A stretch of 64,000 nt of DNA from Mucilaginibacter aquaedulcis (lineage in GTDB: Bacteria > Bacteroidota > Bacteroidia > Sphingobacteriales > Sphingobacteriaceae): positions 372,001 through 436,000 of the forward strand of contig NZ_JAUFPR010000001.1 in the NCBI RefSeq assembly GCF_030409325.1, read 5' to 3'. This document shows, piece by piece, positions 46,269-56,792 of this stretch. The translations under genes were made by a program, and so were the position numbers. The first letter of the stretch is position 1. Each line of letters begins with the position of its first letter. The notes under the pieces are model-generated. The model did no database searches and was not told the origin of the DNA. It saw only the letters and a list, made by a program, of their open reading frames with translations.

Positions 46269-48566
46269 TTGGATTATTTACAGGGTTTAAACCCCGAACA
46301 AAGGGCAGCGGTTGAACAAACCGAAGGGCCGGTAATGATCATTGCCGGTGCCGGATCAGGCAAAACAAGGGTTATTACTTATAGGGTAGCTCACCTTGTA
46401 CATAAAGGTGTTGATTCCTTTAACATCCTGGTGTTAACCTTTACCAATAAGGCCGCGCGCGAAATGCGCGAGCGTATTACCCATGTGGTAGGTTCTGAGG
46501 CTAAAAATATATGGATGGGTACCTTCCACTCGGTTTTCGCGAAAATACTGAGGGTTGAGGCCGAAAAAATTGGCTACCCAAGCAATTTTACTATTTATGA
46601 TACCGACGATAGTAAGAGTGTACTCCGCGCCATTTTAAAAGAATTGAACCTTGACGATAAGCTGTACAATGTAAACTTTGTGCTCAACCGCATATCGGCA
46701 TCAAAAAACAACCTGATCTCCTGGCAGGAATATAACAAGAACGAGCAGATACAGGCCGACGATTTTTCGAGCGGCCGCGGTCAATTGGGTAAAATTTACG
46801 AAATGTATGCCACCCGTTGCTACCGTGCCGGAGCCATGGATTTTGACGACCTGTTGTATAAAACCAACGAACTGTTAAAGCTGCATCCTGACGTGCTAAA
46901 CAAATACCAGCACAAGTTTAAATACCTGATGGTGGATGAGTATCAGGATACCAACTTTTCGCAATATCTTATTGTAAAAAAACTGGCGGCCGTTAACGAA
47001 AACCTTTGTGTTGTGGGTGATGATGCCCAGAGTATCTATGCTTTCCGCGGCGCCAATATCCAGAATATCCTCAACTTTGAAAAGGATTACCCCGATTTGA
47101 AGGTGTTTAAACTGGAGCAAAACTACCGCTCAACCCAAAATATTGTGCATGTTGCCAACAGCATCATCAGCAATAATAAGGAGCAGCTTAAAAAGAACGT
47201 TTTTTCTGAAAAGGAAGCTGGGGATAAAATAAAGGTGATGCGCGCCTTCAGCGATAACGAAGAAGGTAAGGTAGTGGCCGAAACCATTATGCAGGACCGC
47301 AGCCTAAAGGGCCGCAAGTGGCATGATTTTGCCATTCTGTACCGCACCAACGCTCAATCGCGCTCAATGGAGGAGGCCCTGCGTAAACTGGGTATCCCCT
47401 ATAAAATTTACGGAGGTTTGTCTTTCTACCAGCGTAAGGAGATCAAGGACCTGATAGCTTATTTCAGGCTCACCTTTAACCCTAATGATGAGGAAGCATT
47501 AAAGCGTGTTATCAATTACCCGAAACGTGGAATTGGGGACACCTCTGTTGACAAGATTATTGTAAGCGCCGATCAGCACCAAATAACTCCATGGGAGGTA
47601 ATTGTAGAGCCAACCAAATATTTAGAGGGTAAAATTTCGGGCGCGGTAAGCACATTTGCTACCATGATCCAGAGCTTTCAGGTGCTGGCCAAAACCAAGT
47701 CGGCCTATGAGTCGGCTTTGTATATTGCACAGCACTCGGGCCTTTTGAAAGACCTTTATGAAGATAAATCTGTAGAGGGCTTAAACCGCTACGAAAACAT
47801 ACAGGAGTTACTGAACGGTATCAAGGAATTTTCTGAACGTGAGGATATTGAGGAAAAAGGCCTTGATATTTTCATGCAGGATGTTGCCCTGCTTACCAAT
47901 GATGATAAGGACAAAGACAAAGATGCCGATACTGTATCATTAATGACCATACACTCCAGCAAAGGTTTGGAGTTTCCGCAGGTGTATGTAGTAGGTTTAG
48001 AAGAAAACCTGTTCCCATCACAAATGTCGCTCAATTCGCGCAGTGATTTGGAGGAAGAGCGCCGTTTGTTTTACGTAGCCGTAACCCGTGCCGAAAGCAA
48101 GCTTACCATTAGCTACGCCACCTCAAGGTTTAAGTTTGGAACGCTTATTAGCTGCGAGCCAAGCCGTTTTCTGGATGAGATTGATGCCAAATACCTGGAG
48201 CTTGATTATAGCGCCAAACCATCAGCCGCTAATAATCCGTTTTTTGATGATGAGCGCAAAGCCTGGACGGGTGCGCCAAAACAAGCAGACGCGTTTTCAA
48301 AACCTAAGGCTGCAACATCGGCCCCGGTTAAAACTACTTCTATACTGGCCAAGGCACACGTACCTTCGGCCAACTTTAAACCGTCTGATACCTCAAACCT
48401 GCAGGTGGGTATGGAAGTGGAGCACGAACGCTTTGGTTTTGGCAAGGTAATAAGTCTTGAAGGTAACAAACCTGATATTAAAGCTACCATATTTTTTAAG
48501 GAAATTGGGCAAAAACAGCTGCTGTTGAAATTCGCGAAATTGTACATTATCAGCAACATAAACTAA
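46269..48566 (+). CDS. UvrD/PcrA-family ATP-dependent DNA helicase
   Basis: The 765-residue SF1A helicase has the Q-motif LNPEQRAAV, Walker A GAGSGKT near residue 26, LVLTFTNKAAREM (motif Ia), Walker B YLMVDEYQDTN, VGDDAQSIYAFRGA (III), FKLEQNYRST (IV), VSLMTIHSSKGLEFPQVYVVGLEE (V) and LFYVAVTRA (VI). The C-terminus (VGMEVEHERFGFGKVISLEG) matches the PcrA Tudor-like domain. The start codon is TTG at 46269, preceded by AAGAGGA; no in-frame ATG fits the conserved DYLQGLNPEQ start. Roles are nucleotide-excision repair and displacement of proteins from DNA. Confidence 0.93.
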   Translation: MDYLQGLNPEQRAAVEQTEGPVMIIAGAGSGKTRVITYRVAHLVHKGVDSFNILVLTFTNKAAREMRERITHVVGSEAKNIWMGTFHSVFAKILRVEAEKIGYPSNFTIYDTDDSKSVLRAILKELNLDDKLYNVNFVLNRISASKNNLISWQEYNKNEQIQADDFSSGRGQLGKIYEMYATRCYRAGAMDFDDLLYKTNELLKLHPDVLNKYQHKFKYLMVDEYQDTNFSQYLIVKKLAAVNENLCVVGDDAQSIYAFRGANIQNILNFEKDYPDLKVFKLEQNYRSTQNIVHVANSIISNNKEQLKKNVFSEKEAGDKIKVMRAFSDNEEGKVVAETIMQDRSLKGRKWHDFAILYRTNAQSRSMEEALRKLGIPYKIYGGLSFYQRKEIKDLIAYFRLTFNPNDEEALKRVINYPKRGIGDTSVDKIIVSADQHQITPWEVIVEPTKYLEGKISGAVSTFATMIQSFQVLAKTKSAYESALYIAQHSGLLKDLYEDKSVEGLNRYENIQELLNGIKEFSEREDIEEKGLDIFMQDVALLTNDDKDKDKDADTVSLMTIHSSKGLEFPQVYVVGLEENLFPSQMSLNSRSDLEEERRLFYVAVTRAESKLTISYATSRFKFGTLISCEPSRFLDEIDAKYLELDYSAKPSAANNPFFDDERKAWTGAPKQADAFSKPKAATSAPVKTTSILAKAHVPSANFKPSDTSNLQVGMEVEHERFGFGKVISLEGNKPDIKATIFFKEIGQKQLLLKFAKLYIISNIN

Positions 48567-48711
48567 GGGTTAAGCCTGTTTTCGTGTAATTATTTCCCCA
48601 CACTTCACACTTTCCCGTTAAATTACGCAATAAATGAGCGTTTTTTAACGGGAAGAAATGATGGCATACCATTTGGATATGTTTGCTTACTTAATTGAGA
48701 GGAAACATATT

Positions 48712-49080
48712 ATGAGCGACAGCACTAAAAAGCAAACCAATAAATCAGTAGGAAAAAATATAAGGACATTACGCCATAAACATGGATGGAGCCAGGAAGA
48801 TGTAGCAAACCGTTTAGGTATATCTATCCCCGCCTTTTCAAAAATTGAAACCGGAGTAACTGATATTAATTTATCAAGACTGGAACAAATTGCCAACATC
48901 TTTGAAATTAATGTGGCTCAAATATTAGTGATCGATTCTGAAGAAATCGACCTTACTCCTTCAAACCTGAGCATTGCCCAGAAAAAACTTCTTGACCGCG
49001 AATCGGAAATTGCAAACCTGCAACGTAAGGTGATTTTACTTTATGAAGAATTGCGCAACAAAAGCATTTTAGCATTATAA
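48712..49080 (+). CDS. XRE-family transcriptional regulator with C-terminal coiled coil
   Basis: The ATG at 48712 follows a GAGAGGA ribosome site, giving 122 residues; an upstream in-frame ATG at 48658 is less likely. The HTH_3 domain (GKNIRTLRHKHGWSQEDVANRLGISIPAFSKIETGVTDINLSRLEQIANIFEI) spans about 14-66. A helical tail (KKLLDRESEIANLQRKVILLYEELR) should dimerise. It has no TPR or ligand domain. It could bind the dyads in the following 225-nt gap, and is separated by one gene from the divergent TPR/peptide pair. Its target is unknown. Confidence 0.88.
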   Translation: MSDSTKKQTNKSVGKNIRTLRHKHGWSQEDVANRLGISIPAFSKIETGVTDINLSRLEQIANIFEINVAQILVIDSEEIDLTPSNLSIAQKKLLDRESEIANLQRKVILLYEELRNKSILAL

Positions 49081-49286: not shown

Positions 49287-49314
49287 CATATACATTTTAT
49301 AATAAATGTATATG
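49287..49314 (+). promoter_or_regulatory. Hairpin overlapping the start of the 49306 gene
   Basis: CATATACATTT and AAATGTATATG form a perfect 11-bp inverted repeat with a 6-nt loop (TATAAT). Both candidate start codons of the next gene (ATG at 49306 and at 49312) lie in the 3' arm. If formed in RNA it would hide the start; on DNA it could be an operator. Confidence 0.45.
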
Positions 49315-49614
49315 TCAAATTATCTTATATCTATTTCAAAAAACCAGGCTTTGAAAGATGGTACCATCCATGACCCTAAGAGCAAACTTAAGGTTAAGGC
49401 GTTTGACCTTGTAAAGTCGAGGTTTAAGCCGCGCCAGGGCGAAGTAAGATTTTTTGTTACCGCCGGTGATGATACCCTTGCCTTTGAAACCGAAGGCTAC
49501 GACAAACACCGCCAGCTGCTGATATTGCAAATGATATCCTGGTATTGCATTTATCTGGGGCTTATTGAGGCGCAGATCCACTCATCACTTCCAAGAGCGT
49601 TTAGTCTCTATTAG
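49306..49614 (+). CDS. Small protein of unknown function
   Basis: The 102 residues (or 100 from ATG 49312) have no signal peptide: SNYLISISKNQALKDGTIHDPKSKLKVKAFDLVKSRFKPRQGEVRFFVTAGDDTLAFETEGYDKHRQLLILQ is a soluble, mixed alpha/beta stretch (about residues 4-74), followed by a hydrophobic MISWYCIYLGLIEAQI. I do not recognise the family. Its stop lies 15 nt from the end of the convergent TPR gene. Codon use and a plausible hydrophobic core suggest it is real, but evidence is modest. Confidence 0.6.
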   Translation: MYMSNYLISISKNQALKDGTIHDPKSKLKVKAFDLVKSRFKPRQGEVRFFVTAGDDTLAFETEGYDKHRQLLILQMISWYCIYLGLIEAQIHSSLPRAFSLY

Positions 49615-49629: not shown

Positions 49630-51084
49630 TTATGATAAGCTGCCTGGGGTTGGTGCTTTGTGTGAGGGCGTGTGCAGCATATCGCTCATTTCAATTATTT
49701 TTTCGTCAATTTCCGATACGCATTTATCCATCATGTTGATGCATTCCTGCTGATCAACAAGGCCCTCTTTTTCAAGGTTTATCAACCCGCGCAAGGTAGC
49801 AATAGGTCCCCTGATCTGGTGCGAAAGATAGGATGAGTGTTCTGAGAGCTTTTTGTTCTTGATCTGCAAATCCTTGGTACGCTCGTCAATAATCTCTTCC
49901 AGGTGATGGTTAATACGATCGAGGTTATCTTTTTGCCTTAACACCTCCTCGTTAAGCATAGTAAGCTGCGCGTTGGTTTTTGCTTTGCGTTTAACGTTAC
50001 CAAACAACAAACCGATAACAACAAGCAACAGGCCTGCAACGGTACAAACCGCCCAAAATCTTGAGCGGTCATAAGCTTGACGTTCGGCCACACGTTCATT
50101 TTCTTTAACCTGCTCCTCCTGGCGGCGCTTGGCCTCAATAAGTTTCATCTGAACCGATGTATTGAGCTTATAGGTGGTACTGTCAATACGGTATACCTCC
50201 TGCAGGTAAAACAGGGCGCGCTCAAAGTTTTTACGGTTAAACTCAAGTTCGTAAGCGGTATGTTTATAATCGTAATCAAGCTTAGGGTCTTTAACCAGCT
50301 GGGTATAAGCTATACCTTCCTTTACAATTTTTTCGGCTTCGTCGTATTTTTTCTGGCTTATATATATAGATGCGATAGTTAGGTTTACGCTGGCTACAGA
50401 TTCATTAAGATCCTGGCGCTTAGCTGCTACGTTAGCTTTCAACAAAAACTCCAGCGCTTTATCATGCTGGTTTAAGCGCTGATAAACTACCCCTTTATTC
50501 AACAAACACTGAACAAGGTTTACAGAATCCTTTAGCTTTTCAAAAACAACGGTGCTTTGATCATAAAACTTAAGCGCCTGGTGCAGGCTGTTTTTGCGAA
50601 TGTAAACGTTGCCCAGGTTAAGACCCAGCGAAGCTATCAGCCGCTCATCCCCTATACGGGTGGCTATATCAAGTGATTTCTTGAGGTAATCAAGCGACCG
50701 GTTATAATCATGATCTCTGAATAATATACCTATATTATTATAAACCTTGGCCTCGCCTGCCAGGTTATTAGCCTTAACAAAGTAGGTAATACCTATCAGG
50801 TAATTATCGAAAGATTGTTCGGGCTGGTCAAGATAATATCTTCCTATACCCAAAACACGATAAGCCTCACCAATACCATTATAATAATTTAACTTTTTAG
50901 CAAGGGCCAAAGCCTTGGAGGCATCGGCAACTGTTTGCTCCGGATCAATTAACCGGTTGGCAAAAGCCTGCTTGTTTAAACTAATTACAGTAGCAGTGTC
51001 ACTTACCGATACATCATTAAACCCCTTTGCATATACACCGAGTGATACAAAAAAGACCAATAGAAATGTATAGGTTTTTTTCAT
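49630..51084 (-). CDS. TPR sensor protein with histidine-kinase dimerisation helix but no ATPase domain
   Basis: The 484-residue protein has a signal peptide (MKKTYTFLLVFFVSLGVYAKG). About seven TPR-like helical repeats follow to about residue 310 (for example GEAYRVLGIGRYYLDQPEQSFDNYLIGI and VQCLLNKGVVYQRLNQHDKALEFLLKA). A membrane helix spans about 343-364, then a coiled coil, then a HisKA-like segment with H422 in LSHQIRGPIATLRGL. It stops about 60 residues later, where the HATPase domain should start. It is divergent from the KRDLG peptide operon. Periplasmic TPRs next to secreted peptides suggest a peptide sensor; that is inference. A frameshifted kinase domain is not visible downstream. 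Confidence 0.85.
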   Translation of the reverse strand: MKKTYTFLLVFFVSLGVYAKGFNDVSVSDTATVISLNKQAFANRLIDPEQTVADASKALALAKKLNYYNGIGEAYRVLGIGRYYLDQPEQSFDNYLIGITYFVKANNLAGEAKVYNNIGILFRDHDYNRSLDYLKKSLDIATRIGDERLIASLGLNLGNVYIRKNSLHQALKFYDQSTVVFEKLKDSVNLVQCLLNKGVVYQRLNQHDKALEFLLKANVAAKRQDLNESVASVNLTIASIYISQKKYDEAEKIVKEGIAYTQLVKDPKLDYDYKHTAYELEFNRKNFERALFYLQEVYRIDSTTYKLNTSVQMKLIEAKRRQEEQVKENERVAERQAYDRSRFWAVCTVAGLLLVVIGLLFGNVKRKAKTNAQLTMLNEEVLRQKDNLDRINHHLEEIIDERTKDLQIKNKKLSEHSSYLSHQIRGPIATLRGLINLEKEGLVDQQECINMMDKCVSEIDEKIIEMSDMLHTPSHKAPTPGSLS

Positions 51085-51181: not shown

Positions 51182-51219
51182 TTTTTTTGTATTATATCAA
51201 AAAACATATTTATATTTGC
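51182..51219 (+). promoter_or_regulatory. Bacteroidota-type promoter of the KRDLG peptide operon, with long leader
   Basis: A T-run ending TTTG (51186-51189) lies 21 nt before TATATTTG (51211-51218), close to the TTTG-N19-TAnnTTTG consensus. Transcription would start near 51226 and leave a leader of about 435 nt before the first precursor. That leader is very A+T-rich, with a TTAAGCTG/CAGCTTAA hairpin (51302-51323) and one 17-codon ORF (ATG at 51260) that I do not call. The spacing is 2 nt longer than the consensus. Confidence 0.5.
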
Positions 51220-51662
51220 TTCGTTAATCAATTGATACACAATAGATTAGTGAAGTATTATGACGATTTTAATAATATTTTTTAGGCATAAAGGTGGCCG
51301 TTTAAGCTGCTGAAAACAGCTTAAAAACACAAAAGGCGATTATATGTGACTATTATACTATCTGATTGATAAAAAAAAACAAAAAAATATATAAAGCGAT
51401 TGATTTAAAAGATATAAAGACTATTCCTAAAGCTACTATTTTGTTTCAATAAACAATACGAATTATTACGAAGAAACTAAAATATTTTTAAAGAAACAGT
51501 TAATTATCACATTGAAAATCAACGTAAAACAGCTATAAAAGTACTTAATAATTTTTAAATACAGAGAATAAACCTACGGTCTCTCTGCAACATTGAATAT
51601 TAGTTACAATATTATTACACAACAGTTAATTGAATGGAATATCAATATAAATATTAACCAAC

Positions 51663-51806
51663 ATGAAAAGAACTATTTTACTCGCCCTGCTTATAGTAAG
51701 CACCGGAGTTTTGTCATCATCATCAAAAAGCACCCCTGAAGCAGTGGTTGCAAGTTTTGGTAAAACAACAGCAGCATTTAAAAGGGATTTGGGCAGCGCC
51801 GATTAA
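51663..51806 (+). CDS. KRDLG-type small secreted peptide precursor 1
   Basis: This 47-residue ORF starts MKRTILLALLIVSTGVLSSS, a typical export signal, has a short linker (STPEAVVASFGKTTAA) and ends FKRDLGSAD. The same ending closes the next ORF and, with Asn for the first Ser, the third (KRDLGNAD). The C-terminal motif is the repeated core of the large protein at 52253. If cleaved after KR it would release the hexapeptide DLGSAD. The four ORFs in a row with one shared motif argue strongly that this one is translated. The family is not one I recognise. Confidence 0.8.
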   Translation: MKRTILLALLIVSTGVLSSSSKSTPEAVVASFGKTTAAFKRDLGSAD

Positions 51807-51856
51807 GCACCCCCGCAAACCTCTCACAATATTAACCATATAAAATTTATATAGTC

Positions 51857-52000
51857 ATGAAAAAAACGATCCTCTTTATCCTGGCCCTAATTTTTACAGG
51901 CGTCATTTCATCTTGCAAAAAAGAAACAACAAGGATAAATTTTGCCATGGTGCATTCATTTGCCAACGGATTTAAAAGAGATCTGGGCAGCGCCGACTGA
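51857..52000 (+). CDS. KRDLG-type small secreted lipoprotein-like peptide precursor 2
   Basis: This 47-residue ORF starts MKKTILFILALIFTGVISSC, where C20 could be a lipobox cysteine (ISSC, not a perfect L-A-G-C consensus), and ends FKRDLGSAD. It aligns end to end with precursor 1, and its C20 aligns with a Ser there, so one could be lipidated and the other released. The gene starts 50 nt after precursor 1. A C-terminal peptide cut from a lipoprotein recalls enterococcal sex pheromones; this is an analogy only. Confidence 0.8.
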   Translation: MKKTILFILALIFTGVISSCKKETTRINFAMVHSFANGFKRDLGSAD

Positions 52001-52043
52001 TCCTCAACACATGACTATAAAAACTAAATCAAACCACGGGAAC

Positions 52044-52184
52044 ATGAAAAAACTGATCATCATAGCAATTGCCAGCCTGAGTGTTGTAACAGTTCGCGAT
52101 CAAAAAGAAAATGTAAAAGCCAACATGAGCGCCATCAACTTCACGCTGTTTGGTCCCAAAAGAGATTTAGGCAACGCAGATTAA
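52044..52184 (+). CDS. KRDLG-type small secreted peptide precursor 3
   Basis: This 46-residue ORF starts MKKLIIIAIASLSVVTV, a shorter signal, has a linker RDQKENVKANMSAINFTL and ends FGPKRDLGNAD. The preceding G-P and the Asn make it intermediate between precursors 1-2 and the multi-copy protein (SGPKRDLGNGD). It suggests how the repeated gene could have arisen from a single-copy one. It starts 43 nt after precursor 2. Confidence 0.8.
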   Translation: MKKLIIIAIASLSVVTVRDQKENVKANMSAINFTLFGPKRDLGNAD

Positions 52185-52252
52185 ACAACTACATCAACAT
52201 AAAATTAACAACCCACAAAAATATTCATCCCCCTACTAATTAAAAAAATATC

Positions 52253-53410
52253 ATGAAAAAGTCAACCATTATAGCAGCCTTAGCCCTAAGCACATTCCTA
52301 ACCTCAGTAGTTAACATTTCAAATGCATCAACAACCGATGGCAGCAAAACAACAACAGCTGCATCTGGTCCGAAAAGAGATTTAGGTAACGGCGACGCTG
52401 TTTCTGGCCCAAAAAGAGATTTGGGTAATGGTGACTTTGCTTCTGGTCCAAAAAGAGATTTAGGTAACGGTGATTTCGCTGCCGTATCTGGTCCGAAAAG
52501 AGATTTAGGTAATGGTGATTTTGCTTCTGGTCCGAAAAGAGATTTAGGTAACGGTGACTTCGCTGCCGTGTCTGGTCCAAAAAGAGATTTAGGTAATGGT
52601 GATTTCGCATCAGGTCCGAAAAGAGATTTAGGTAACGGTGATTTCGCTGCCGTGTCTGGTCCAAAAAGAGATTTGGGTAATGGTGATTTTGCATCAGGTC
52701 CGAAAAGAGATTTAGGTAATGGTGATTTTGCTGCCGTGTCTGGTCCAAAAAGAGATTTAGGCAACGGTGATTTTGCTGCCGTGTCTGGTCCAAAAAGAGA
52801 TTTAGGTAATGGTGACTTTGCTTCTGGTCCAAAAAGAGATTTAGGTAACGGTGACTTCGCTGCCGTGTCTGGTCCAAAAAGAGATTTAGGTAATGGCGAT
52901 TTCGCATCAGGTCCGAAAAGAGATTTAGGTAACGGTGACTTTGCTGCCGTGTCTGGTCCAAAAAGAGATTTAGGCAATGGTGATTTCGCATCAGGTCCAA
53001 AAAGAGATTTAGGTAATGGTGATTTTGCATCAGGCCCGAAAAGAGATTTAGGTAATGGTGATTTCGCTGCCGTATCTGGTCCAAAAAGAGATTTAGGTAA
53101 CGGTGACTTCGCTGCCGTGTCTGGTCCAAAAAGAGATTTAGGTAATGGTGATTTCGCATCAGGTCCGAAAAGAGATTTAGGTAACGGTGATTTCGCTGCC
53201 GTATCTGGTCCGAAAAGAGATTTAGGTAACGGTGATTTCGCTGCCGTATCTGGTCCGAAAAGAGATTTAGGTAATGGTGATTTTGCTTCTGGTCCGAAAA
53301 GAGATTTGGGTAACGGTGATTTCGCATCAGGTCCGAAAAGAGATTTGGGTAACGGTGATTTCGCATCAGGTCCGAAAAGAGATTTAGGTAACGGTGACTT
53401 TACTGCATAA
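52253..53410 (+). CDS. Multi-copy secreted peptide precursor with 25 KRDLGNGD repeats
   Basis: The 385-residue protein is a signal peptide and linker (37 residues, MKKSTIIAALALSTFLTSVV...TTTAA) followed only by 25 tandem copies of SGPKRDLGNGD. Copies are joined by FA (12), FAAV (11), AV (first) or, at the C-terminus, FTA. The 11-residue core is invariant in all 25 copies although codons differ. There is no Cys, Trp, Tyr or Met in the repeats. Each core has one dibasic KR; cutting there would give DLGNGDFASGP or DLGNGDFAAVSGP peptides plus the KR. It is the last gene of the four-gene group and is followed by a strong terminator. I know no described family with this repeat. Confidence 0.9.
   Translation: MKKSTIIAALALSTFLTSVVNISNASTTDGSKTTTAASGPKRDLGNGDAVSGPKRDLGNGDFASGPKRDLGNGDFAAVSGPKRDLGNGDFASGPKRDLGNGDFAAVSGPKRDLGNGDFASGPKRDLGNGDFAAVSGPKRDLGNGDFASGPKRDLGNGDFAAVSGPKRDLGNGDFAAVSGPKRDLGNGDFASGPKRDLGNGDFAAVSGPKRDLGNGDFASGPKRDLGNGDFAAVSGPKRDLGNGDFASGPKRDLGNGDFASGPKRDLGNGDFAAVSGPKRDLGNGDFAAVSGPKRDLGNGDFASGPKRDLGNGDFAAVSGPKRDLGNGDFAAVSGPKRDLGNGDFASGPKRDLGNGDFASGPKRDLGNGDFASGPKRDLGNGDFTA
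52364..53407 (+). repeat. Tandem array of 39/45-nt coding units (25 copies)
   Basis: Units of 39 nt (13 codons) and 45 nt (15 codons) often alternate, so an 84-nt dyad is the probable larger unit (four dyads in a row in copies 2-9, then irregular). Lys is always AAA and Arg always AGA, while Gly, Pro, Leu, Asn, Asp, Phe and Ser codons vary in their third base. Confidence 0.9.
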
Positions 53411-53438
53411 GTATATATATAATATATAGGGGTTGACT

Positions 53439-53486
53439 AAAACAGCAAGAGGCCATGCTATTTACAGCATGGCCTCTTGCTGTTTT
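53439..53486 (+). terminator. Strong terminator after the peptide operon
   Basis: AAAACAGCAAGAGGCCATGC (with one more T) pairs perfectly with its complement over 21 bp around the loop ATTTAC, with T-rich flank on both strands. It ends the four-gene KRDLG operon. Confidence 0.9.
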
Positions 53487-53503
53487 AAATCAATAAACAT
53501 CAA

Positions 53504-53511: not shown

Positions 53512-53527
53512 CTGCAAATTGATAACT

Positions 53528-54898
53528 ATGCAGCATATAAAACAGTATGTAAACGATAACAAACAACGTTTACTCGACGAATTGTTTGAACTTTTGCGTT
53601 TCCCTTCGGTTAGCGCCGATCCTAAATACCAGGCAGACGTATTAAAGACTGCCGATTACGTGGCGCAGAAACTACGCGACGCTGGTGCCGATAATGTTGA
53701 GGTTTGCCCAACTGCCGGCTATCCTATAGTATATGGCGAAAAAATAATTGACCCAGCCAAACCTACGGTACTGGTTTACGGGCATTATGATGTACAACCG
53801 CCAGATCCGCTTGAACTTTGGAAAACCCCTCCCTTTGAACCTACCGTTCGCGATGGTAAAATATACGCCCGCGGTGCCTGTGATGATAAGGGTCAGTTTT
53901 ATATGCATGTAAAAGCATTTGAATTGATGATGCAAACCGACACACTACCCTGCAACATCAAATTCATGATTGAGGGCGAAGAAGAGGTTGGTTCATCAAA
54001 CCTGGCTATTTTTGTAAAAGAGAACAAAGCCCGGTTAAAGGCTGATGTAGTGCTGATATCCGATACCTCCATGATCAGCATGGAACACCCCTCGTTAGAA
54101 ACCGGCTTGCGCGGTTTATCATATCTTGAAGTTGAAGTAACCGGCCCTAACCGCGATCTGCACTCTGGTGTATACGGCGGAGCCGTAGCTAATCCGGCTA
54201 CTATCCTGGCCAAAATGATAGCTTCCCTGCATGATGAAAATAACCATATAGCTATCCCTGGCTTTTATGATGATGTTGTTGAGTTAACACCGGCCGAACG
54301 TACCGCGCTTAACAACGCGCCTTATAATGAAGAAGAATATAAGAAAGACCTGGATGTGCAGGAGCTTTGGGGCGAAAAAGGATATACCACTTTTGAGCGT
54401 ACCGGCACTCGCCCTACCCTGGAGGTAAACGGCATTTGGGGCGGATACATTGGCGAAGGTGCCAAAACCGTATTGCCATCAAAGGCCAGCGCGAAAATAT
54501 CTATGCGCCTGGTACCTAACCAAACCAGTGAAAAAATAACCGAACTGTTTACTAAACATTTCCTGAGTATTGCACCTAAAACCGTTAAGGTAAAGGTAAC
54601 GCCACATCATGGCGGCGAGCCTGCAGTAACACCTACAGATAGTGTTGCTTATCGCGCCGCTCAAAAAGCCATCGCAGAATCATTCGGGAAAGAGCCTATA
54701 CCTACACGTGGTGGCGGCAGCATCCCGATTGTAGCACTTTTTGAAGCAGAGCTGGGCCTAAAAACTGTATTGATGGGCTTTGGCCTTGACAGCGACGCGC
54801 TACATTCGCCAAACGAAAAGTATGATATCTTCAATTATTACAAAGGCATTGAAACCATCCCATTGTTTCACAAGTACTTTGCACAGCTAAGCGAGTAA
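53528..54898 (+). CDS. Cytoplasmic M20-family dipeptidase
   Basis: The 456-residue metallopeptidase (start ATG 53528, three codons inside the open frame) has metal ligands in VYGHYDVQP (H), ARGACDDKG (bridging D), EGEEEVGS (E, with catalytic Glu just before), LISDTS (D) and DALHSPNE (H). There is no signal peptide. It should hydrolyse dipeptides or short peptides with a free N-terminus. Placement directly after the peptide-precursor operon invites a role in degrading imported peptides, but it is separated by a terminator and has its own promoter. Confidence 0.9.
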   Translation: MQHIKQYVNDNKQRLLDELFELLRFPSVSADPKYQADVLKTADYVAQKLRDAGADNVEVCPTAGYPIVYGEKIIDPAKPTVLVYGHYDVQPPDPLELWKTPPFEPTVRDGKIYARGACDDKGQFYMHVKAFELMMQTDTLPCNIKFMIEGEEEVGSSNLAIFVKENKARLKADVVLISDTSMISMEHPSLETGLRGLSYLEVEVTGPNRDLHSGVYGGAVANPATILAKMIASLHDENNHIAIPGFYDDVVELTPAERTALNNAPYNEEEYKKDLDVQELWGEKGYTTFERTGTRPTLEVNGIWGGYIGEGAKTVLPSKASAKISMRLVPNQTSEKITELFTKHFLSIAPKTVKVKVTPHHGGEPAVTPTDSVAYRAAQKAIAESFGKEPIPTRGGGSIPIVALFEAELGLKTVLMGFGLDSDALHSPNEKYDIFNYYKGIETIPLFHKYFAQLSE

Positions 54899-55682: not shown

Positions 55683-56792
55683 CTAAACCTCAAACCTTTC
55701 ACAACCGGCTAAAAAATCGTCGCTGGCATCTGCTCCTATACCTGTATCGTCGCCAATATCCAACTTATAGCCGTTGTAGGTTACACCGCCAATGCAGGGG
55801 TCCTGCAAATGACCCAGCATGCAGGTATCCATATCGTAAAACTTAATATTAAGGCTGGCATAAACAAAATGAAGCTTTGCACTCAGGCCTATACGGCTCT
55901 CTAACATACCGCCCATCATACAGGCAATACCTTTTGAGGCGGCTTCGTCATGTATTTTTTTTGCTTCCCATAGCCCGCCCGATTTTGCCAGCTTAATATT
56001 GATATAATGGCAGGAGCCGCTGTTGATCTGCTTGCGGGCATCATGGTGGTTGTACACGCTCTCGTCGGCCATAATTTTTACCGGTGAATGCCTCATGAGT
56101 TGCGGCAGATAATCATCGTACCAGGTGCGCATAGGTTGTTCGCAAAATTCAATATCATAAGGCCCCATAGCTTGCAGGGCAAAAACAGCCTCTTCAAAGC
56201 TCCAGCCCTGGTTGGCATCAATACGAATCTTTAATTCGCTGCCCGCGGCCTCACGGATCTGCTTTATACGCTCTACGTCTTCTATCGCATTCTTGCCGAG
56301 CTTCACCTTCAGTATATTTGCTCCCGAAGCCTTAAAATCAAGTGCCTTAAGCGCCATAGCATGCGGACCAGCTATCCCTATTGTAATGTCTGATTCTACT
56401 TCGCGCTTCGCGCCACCCAAAAAACGATATAGTGGTAAACCGGCATTTTTGGCGGCAATATCAAACAGGGCCATATCAAAAGCGCTTTTGATGGTGGAGT
56501 TACCGGCTATAAAATCATGCAGCTGTTGTAAACGGGAGGGGATATCCAGGGCATCCTTTCCTTTCCAAAGCTTTGCAAATTCACGGGCCAGCACCAGGCA
56601 GGTATCCTGCGTTTCGCCGGTAATGAACTGAAACGCGGCACATTCACCTACGCCATAAAAGCCGGCATCGGTATGTACCCTGATAAAAACATTCTGAGCA
56701 TAATCCATCGTCCCCGTGGCAATGGTAAAAGGTTCCATGGGGATGCTGAAACGGTATATATCTATATGGGTGATGATCACTTTATTATTCAC
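55683..56792 (-). CDS. Dipeptide epimerase-like enolase-superfamily enzyme
   Basis: The 369-residue protein has the muconate-lactonising/AE-epimerase fold: the acid/base K-x-K motif in ILKVKLGK, metal ligands in RIDANQGW (D), FCEQPM (E) and MADESV (D), and the second general base in NIKLAKSGG (K). This set is typical of L-Ala-D/L-Glu and related dipeptide epimerases. It should invert a residue in a dipeptide, usually in peptidoglycan recycling. It ends close to the terminator of the 41-residue gene. The exact dipeptide cannot be deduced. Confidence 0.82.
   Translation of the reverse strand: MNNKVIITHIDIYRFSIPMEPFTIATGTMDYAQNVFIRVHTDAGFYGVGECAAFQFITGETQDTCLVLAREFAKLWKGKDALDIPSRLQQLHDFIAGNSTIKSAFDMALFDIAAKNAGLPLYRFLGGAKREVESDITIGIAGPHAMALKALDFKASGANILKVKLGKNAIEDVERIKQIREAAGSELKIRIDANQGWSFEEAVFALQAMGPYDIEFCEQPMRTWYDDYLPQLMRHSPVKIMADESVYNHHDARKQINSGSCHYINIKLAKSGGLWEAKKIHDEAASKGIACMMGGMLESRIGLSAKLHFVYASLNIKFYDMDTCMLGHLQDPCIGGVTYNGYKLDIGDDTGIGADASDDFLAGCERFEV

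Follow-up and report, generated by a model that had tools for sequence, protein, structure and literature searches.

When several small genes for predicted exported proteins stand in a row and all encode the same octapeptide, a question has to be asked: what is the octapeptide for, and which protein, if any, recognizes it? The 64,000-nt stretch of the Mucilaginibacter aquaedulcis genome analysed here (contig NZ_JAUFPR010000001.1, positions 372,001 to 436,000; hereafter, the window) contains four such genes next to a divergently transcribed gene for a protein with tetratricopeptide repeats (TPR) and a dimerization and histidine phosphotransfer (DHp) domain. Here we argue that the octapeptide of the predicted exported precursors is probably a lineage-private ligand and the predicted periplasmic TPR domain of the divergent neighbor its receptor. 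The argument is built on the sequences, namely, on the precursor genes and the conservation of their octamers, on the fact that these genes are linked to the TPR-DHp gene and absent together with it, and on the correlation between the divergence of the octamer and that of the TPR domain.

The precursor genes are four consecutive open reading frames (ORFs) on the plus strand, at 51663-53410, and share the octapeptide KRDLG[SN][AG]D, just as a preceding sequence-only reading of the window had it. Precursors A (51663..51806; predicted signal peptide) and B (51857..52000; lipoprotein-type signal with the lipobox ISSC) consist of 47 residues each, and both end in FKRDLGSAD, a single terminal octamer. 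Precursor C (52044..52184; 46 residues, predicted signal peptide; a longer ORF with a TTG start has the same reading frame) ends in PKRDLGNAD; by eye, it has no lipobox, which is present in its counterpart at locus L072. Precursor D (52253..53410; 385 residues, predicted signal peptide) contains SGPKRDLGNGD exactly 25 times, the number claimed before, with mostly FA or FAAV spacers after the units (FA, 12; FAAV, 11; AV, 1; FTA, 1). The motif had been placed at the C-terminus of all four proteins, which is correct for A, B and C, but D ends 3 residues beyond its last motif. The back-translated motif matches the 6.13-Mb genome 28 times, every time within the cluster and on the same strand, and the reversed pattern, taken as a control, yields 0 matches; hence the motif cluster is not a product of chance. 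Furthermore, the small ORFs behave like genes, as can be judged from the ratio of nonsynonymous to synonymous polymorphism (pN/pS): for ORF B (19 orthologues), it is 0.06 in the octamer, 0.48 in the propeptide and 0.22 in the signal, and for ORF A (7 orthologues), 0.00, 0.18 and 0.33, respectively, and 0.19 overall. By this measure, the orthologues of ORF B are under purifying selection, which is strongest on the octamer.

The view that these genes represent a new class of precursors has held up in so far as they belong to a family of small, predicted exported proteins for which no Pfam or NCBIfam match above the curated cut-off was found. A match of ORF A (51663-51803) to the CvfB winged-helix family in Pfam (E=1.8e-4) is under the cut-off, has no equivalent in B, C or D, and is probably fortuitous. 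Among the 120 of 179 precursor relatives listed, none has a Pfam domain, and the named ones are mostly called "hypothetical protein" or "uncharacterized". A protein database search with ORF D returned only three weak matches, to repeat proteins that contain the Pfam domain PF21300; one of them is called "Grass antifreeze beta roll" in its source. The scarcity of matches, here as well as in the contig scan, which found one locus, is due to the difference of octamers between species, and the TPR gene is the better bait for such loci. The single-sequence structure model of D has a pLDDT of 42, which is consistent with disorder but no proof of it.

While correct about the cluster itself, the sequence-only reading missed both the adjacent receptor candidate and the switching of octamers across the genus. 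The receptor candidate (49630..51084, minus strand; 484 residues) combines a predicted signal peptide, seven TPRs (approximately residues 34-300), a transmembrane helix (approximately 343-362) and a HisKA/DHp domain with His422. Pfam recognizes TPR_12 (E=7e-22) and, just under the cut-off, HisKA (E=2e-5; 24.8 bits against 26.9), and found neither a HATPase nor a helix-turn-helix (HTH) domain in this protein. His422, within SHQIRGP or a close variant, is identical in 121/121 relatives; a hydrophobic, signal-like N-terminus is seen in 118/121 and, by hydrophobicity, a transmembrane segment in 121/121. In all 121, the proteins, of 454-493 residues, end after the DHp domain and before any ATPase domain. 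With the histidine of the DHp domain retained but no ATPase domain to go with it, the protein would depend on a partner kinase or response regulator.

The structure model of the TPR protein (mean pLDDT 84, mostly above 90 in the TPR part; pTM 0.62) comprises seven TPRs, and the close solved folds of its TPR domain include, among the matches listed, RapF-PhrF, RapJ-CSF, NprR-NprX, a phage Rap with its pheromone, LGN with a peptide and APPBP2 with a degron, as well as APC/C and separase. In HOP, the "carboxylate clamp" of the TPR domain recognizes EEVD; by analogy, a clamp of this kind for the terminal Asp of the octamer might be imagined, as an idea only. Among the relatives, R76, N117 and N156 show almost no variation, and N196, too, is strongly conserved. 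For RapJ, the interface residue N225 is described as required for the peptide response (PMC3601965), and the conserved asparagines of the TPR domain may be its counterparts, a candidate equivalence drawn by analogy.

How widespread are such loci? The KRDLG pattern matched 23 of the 149 genomes of the genus, two of them (G016 and G044) in unrelated long ORFs, which were excluded, so that 21 true loci remained. With the TPR protein as bait, the gene was found in 138/149 genus genomes (E<=1e-40) and in 156/399 family genomes, representing 11/25 genera (E<=1e-60); a scan of the class gave 8 matches in 395 genomes (E<=1e-35), all within the family Sphingobacteriaceae. Those of the best relatives of the neighbor protein that bear a name, at identities of at least 70%, come from Mucilaginibacter. 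The counts below refer to 101 loci of the 138 TPR-positive genus genomes, many of those left out being located at contig ends, and to 20 of the 52 TPR-positive genomes outside the genus; L058, the same genome as L067, was left out. Upstream of the TPR gene, a motif score, which was trained on these same loci and anchored at Asp, so that the Asp of the scored octamers is there by construction, identified precursors at 98/101 genus and 14/20 family loci, 524 genes altogether, and on the opposite side of the TPR gene, as a control, at 2/121 loci (831 signal-like ORFs). The genus loci that failed are L188-L190; among the family loci, contig ends truncate L198 and L214, the small lipoproteins of L199, L205 and L206 have diverged at the end, and that of L210 has no motif. 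In three further loci outside the genus and beyond these counts, L245-L247, precursors are present as judged by eye.

The anticipated co-occurrence of single- and multi-copy genes is common: 75/101 genus loci have at least two precursor genes and 41/101 a gene with at least 10 copies. At the other end of the range, no gene exceeds 3 copies at 25/101 genus loci, and none exceeds 2 at the 20 family loci. There can be as many as 29 scored copies per protein and 12 precursor genes. Being short and repeat-rich, these genes can easily escape notice or be fragmented in assemblies; at L060, L063, L064, L067 and L068, the repeat gene is interrupted by runs of N or by contig ends.

Homologues with the motif at ORF ends, which the sequence-only reading had proposed to look for, thus exist not only as the 21 true KRDLG loci of the genus but also as other octamer versions in the genus and the family. 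In total, there are 1729 motif copies and, in 112 loci, 68 distinct dominant octamers (the dominant octamer being the commonest last copy per gene, with ties split arbitrarily). In the genomes without KRDLG, the place upstream of the TPR gene is taken by other octamers such as KRDLATAD, KKDLGQAD, KKDIGTAD, KKDVGTAD and KKDVSSAD; also found in the genus are KKDIGQAD, KKNTGSAD, KHNTGSSD, KNDVGNGD, KQDLGQAD, KNNLATAD, KKELGTAD, RTALGNAD, KGTLSQAD and KTDVGQGD. In the Asp-anchored scan, the frequencies by position are K60, K48, D74, L52/I30, G57, T50 and A83%. Since the motif Asp is the very end of the protein in 283/312 single-copy precursors, K-x-[DN]-[LIV]-G-[TS]-A-D is to be regarded as the conserved unit, in place of DLGNGDFASGP, one of the peptides named in the sequence-only reading. 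The related idea of cores cut out between dibasic KR pairs, as by Kex2 in alpha-factor, also had to be abandoned: K[KR] opens the conserved octamer, and a dibasic pair is present in only 64/112 dominant octamers.

A lipobox with its Cys was detected, by a simple expression, in 162/524 precursors, ORF B included, and was absent from 362/524; the lipobox-bearing precursors are predicted lipoproteins. Outside the genus, precursors are mostly small and lipoprotein-like (34/42 with a lipobox) and end in DKGNLGTWD, DKKDMGGWD or DKRDLGTGD, or contain IRDIGTWD shortly before the end. At many loci, such as L115, L118, L136 and L245, the final precursor is set apart by a leader of its own and by a better conserved end, namely, KSDIATAD or KSDLATAD within the genus and DKRLASWD in another one, even at loci whose remaining octamers are different; this distinctive precursor is, perhaps, a second, common signal.

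The association of octamer and receptor candidate is apparent, first of all, in joint presence and absence. At E<=1e-10, a cut-off chosen afterwards, with tallies made by hand, the precursor profile matched 95/156 TPR-positive and 1/243 TPR-negative genomes; at E<=1e-3, it matched 380/399 genomes, mostly through what we read as common lipoprotein signals. TPR-negative genomes G137, G211, G258, G266 (with a 3' flank of only 0.5 kb), G270 and G271 have the flanking UvrD gene, with neither the TPR gene nor precursors at this place; G262 has no UvrD match and is outside this comparison, and in TPR-negative G156, which is 76% complete, the profile matched down to 1.7e-9. Within a genome, otherwise unlike precursors are alike in their octamers: at leader identities of 0.1-0.5, octamer identity is 0.71-0.79 within genomes against 0.47-0.57 between them, and of the 72 genus loci with pairs of divergent leaders, 65 include at least one pair that agrees at 6 or more of the 8 octamer positions. 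Identical octamers differ, on average, by 4.6 synonymous changes per 24 nt, so that it is selection at the protein level that keeps them alike. Moreover, the TPR sensor part evolves fast, with a mean distance of 0.486 against 0.160 for the cytoplasmic part and 0.132 for UvrD, and its distances correlate with those of the octamers after correction for UvrD, the cytoplasmic domain and the neighboring XRE and c2 proteins (partial r 0.271, p 0.001; by rank, 0.163, p 0.004; Mantel tests on 93 and 89 loci, those with usable neighbors). Along the tree, branch by branch, changes of the octamer also go together with those of the sensor domain (partial r 0.42).

Several results are mixed or do not fit this interpretation. 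The quartet test was mixed, with 2087 quartets in favor of within-genome sharing, 3440 in favor of orthologues and 1477 ties; by genome pair, it favored within-genome sharing, 323 to 188. Site by site, covariation between octamer and TPR positions did not exceed chance, and no pairs of sites were resolved; the divergence of c2, too, shows a weak correlation with that of the octamer. Receptor-like genes are found without adjacent precursors, namely, the tandem TPR-DHp genes of the divergent genus genome G134 (L240, 110-3212), which is outside the 101 loci counted, a second TPR copy in G055, and the genes for two TPR proteins of 583 residues with His_kinase/HATPase domains (L242, 3546-5297; L243, 6587-8338), whose relationship to the receptor candidate is limited to the TPR part; for one of these two loci, only 0.85 kb of upstream sequence is available. 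These 583-residue proteins are possible partners of the receptor candidate. Finally, residues follow the last motif in 136/524 precursors, so that the C-terminus either is trimmed afterwards or need not be free.

Can the octapeptides be something other than a signal? Of the functions named in the sequence-only reading, namely, signalling, a modified natural product or a surface polymer, signalling has become the best reading, and the modified product has lost ground, as the families common to most loci were not seen to include a modifying enzyme. Multi-core graspetides and fungal repeat precursors carry several cores per precursor, and the octamers could, likewise, be cross-linked or otherwise modified cores of ribosomally synthesized and post-translationally modified peptides (RiPPs), with repeat genes yielding many of them; the repetition, the K, D and S/T residues of the octamer and its much stronger conservation than that of the propeptide would suit such cores. 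The export signals predicted here are of the Sec or lipoprotein type, however, no Pfam or NCBIfam precursor family is matched, the families common to most of the 21 KRDLG loci include no RiPP enzyme (elsewhere in the genome, none was sought), and the variability of the K, S and T positions (K60%, T50%) hardly suits a fixed cross-link, which makes RiPPs a very improbable explanation. We give just as little credence to structural or surface polymers (adhesive, cryoprotective or matrix repeats), with the small proteins as anchors or end caps. Up to 29 scored copies per protein and the weak matches of D, its only ones, to PF21300 proteins would fit a polymer, but the 25/101 genus loci and the 20 family loci where no gene goes beyond 3 and 2 copies, respectively, would not; the single-sequence model of D has no fold, which is weak evidence, and a structural role would leave the linkage to, and correlated divergence with, a TPR sensor unexplained.

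Two further explanations give the TPR protein a part of its own. If the octapeptides were secreted for kin exclusion or as bacteriocin-like agents, with the TPR protein conferring immunity or self-recognition, an arms race would drive diversification, and the lineage-specific divergence and joint presence and absence described above suit pairs of this kind as well as they suit pheromones. Yet the predicted transmembrane signalling build, with the DHp histidine in 121/121 relatives, is unexpected for an immunity protein, and no export or modification gene is found among the families common to most loci; we consider antagonism quite unlikely. Alternatively, the octamers could bind the TPR protein inside the envelope of the same cell, as a lipoprotein-reporting or quality-control switch with no intercellular signal. 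The lipoboxes (162/524 precursors; 34/42 outside the genus) fit in with this possibility inasmuch as many octamers are, perhaps, tethered to the membrane near the receptor; however, monitoring of one's own envelope needs no lineage-specific divergence of octamers, and 362/524 precursors have no lipobox by the simple expression. Such a switch appears unlikely, if less strained than the explanations above.

Under the ligand-receptor reading, the precursors would be exported by Sec or as lipoproteins, and the octapeptide would be displayed or released outside the inner membrane, with repeat genes such as D allowing more copies of the ligand to be made from each protein. The octapeptide would then be bound by the TPR domain, which is predicted to be periplasmic, with the motif Asp at or near the peptide C-terminus, and the signal would pass through the membrane to the DHp domain, where a partner kinase or response regulator would supply the step that is missing from the ATPase-less protein. 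The likeliest use of the signal is population or kin sensing. A more far-reaching and tentative possibility, which we rate below even chances, is that the Sphingobacteriaceae have a Gram-negative pherotype system, in which lineages have private octapeptides, encoded by as many as 12 genes with a maximum of 29 copies in a gene, and TPR receptors to match, placed at the outer face of the inner membrane and devoid of a kinase domain.

The precursor cluster looks like one operon, given a promoter-like site, short gaps between the precursors and a hairpin after D. The site, of the Bacteroidota type TTTG-N-TATATTTG (51186..51218, plus strand; a pattern match), is a possible start of the operon; its TATATTTG part falls in a block conserved across the 21 aligned loci of the KRDLG clade, and a full match lies at most 250 bp from the first precursor in 23/112 loci against 2.2 expected. 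About 440 nt of poorly conserved sequence (51219-51660), with a 9-bp hairpin at 51301-51325, separate the site from ORF A; the distance from the TPR gene to ORF A is similar within the KRDLG clade (520-607 nt). The median gap between consecutive precursors is 52 nt (412 gaps, all loci). A perfect 22-nt inverted repeat with a 6-nt loop at 53438..53487 is a probable terminator; sub-threshold Rfam matches to microRNAs at this place were judged spurious.

The 21 true KRDLG loci have the same flanks, namely, UvrD, XRE, c2, the divergent TPR gene and the precursors, with M20 in 19; the gene families present at 15 or more of these fully listed loci are UvrD, XRE, c2, TPR, M20, the repeat precursor, MR_MLE and DUF4290. 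Among the families common to most of these loci, neither an export gene nor a modifying enzyme was seen, the rest of the genome not having been searched for the latter and c2 and DUF4290 being of no known function. The UvrD/PcrA helicase (46269..48566, plus strand; Pfam), a syntenic landmark outside the system, is present at 96/101 genus and 18/20 family loci. The XRE-type HTH protein (48658..49080, plus strand; 97/101 genus loci) and c2, a conserved 102-residue protein without a Pfam match encoded between the XRE and TPR genes (49306-49614; 92/101), were rejected as regulators of the system because they are confined to the genus (0/20 family loci each). On the other side, an M20 dipeptidase (53519..54898, plus strand; Pfam Peptidase_M20) is a conserved neighbor, at most 5.2 kb away in 72/92 genus and 18/18 family loci with enough flank. 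It is probably not part of the system, being absent within this distance from 20/92 genus loci and retained in G137, where receptor and precursors are missing and M20 still adjoins UvrD, about 0.8 kb after it, although M20 may still have some role. Near it, at 55683-56792, lies a gene for an MR_MLE enzyme (Pfam), presumably a dipeptide epimerase; recycling of murein peptides by the two enzymes might explain the presence of M20 without any link to the octapeptides.

In searches of the open-access literature, judged by the papers listed, we found no report of a peptide pheromone, or of the present system, in these bacteria, and among the papers listed with the text "KRDLG", none turned out to concern these genes. 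If the proposal is correct, we would have here the first case, to our knowledge, of peptide signalling in Bacteroidota, with a linked ligand-receptor candidate that can be read from the genomes of more than 100 species. The dozens of natural octamer versions would be ready-made specificity variants, so that binding and cross-talk could be tested with synthetic 8-mers.

Each of the known systems that come to mind shares only some of these features. Yeast alpha-factor and the Kex2-processed repeat precursors similarly string copies of a short peptide together in one exported protein, but here the dibasic pair is itself a part of the conserved unit, 48/112 loci have no such pair in their dominant octamer, and single-copy versions mostly end at Asp. 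Enterococcal sex pheromones are cut from the lipoprotein signal sequence of small lipoprotein precursors, to which part of the precursors described here can be likened; in the latter, however, the conserved part is the C-terminus and not the signal sequence. In its presumed mode of action, which we infer, the system would work like the TPR-receptor peptide pheromones of Bacillota, the RRNPP family (Rap-Phr, NprR-NprX), and the modelled TPR superhelix resembles the solved Rap and NprR receptors. RRNPP receptors are cytoplasmic, have an HTH or phosphatase output and respond to re-imported peptides, whereas the TPR domain described here has a predicted signal peptide and transmembrane helix and is joined to a DHp domain, with no HTH by Pfam; in addition, one octamer is common to several unlike precursors, with up to 29 copies per protein, in a Gram-negative host. 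Since the TPR domain is predicted on the opposite side of the membrane, the system falls outside the RRNPP family. The FimS protein of Porphyromonas gingivalis likewise has a periplasmic TPR sensor, and the NCBIfam model of FimS matches residues 109-380 of the receptor candidate (E=1.9e-15; 56 bits against a cut-off of 600). FimS is reported to form a two-component system with the regulator FimR, its signal is stated to be unknown, and the passages on FimS consulted there name no linked peptide genes (PMC11053733); by contrast, the proteins described here have linked precursor genes and have kept the DHp histidine while the ATPase domain is missing in 121/121 relatives. Should the octapeptides prove to be ligands, the orphan TPR sensors of the phylum, FimS included, would gain a candidate class of ligands, short peptides with a C-terminal Asp.
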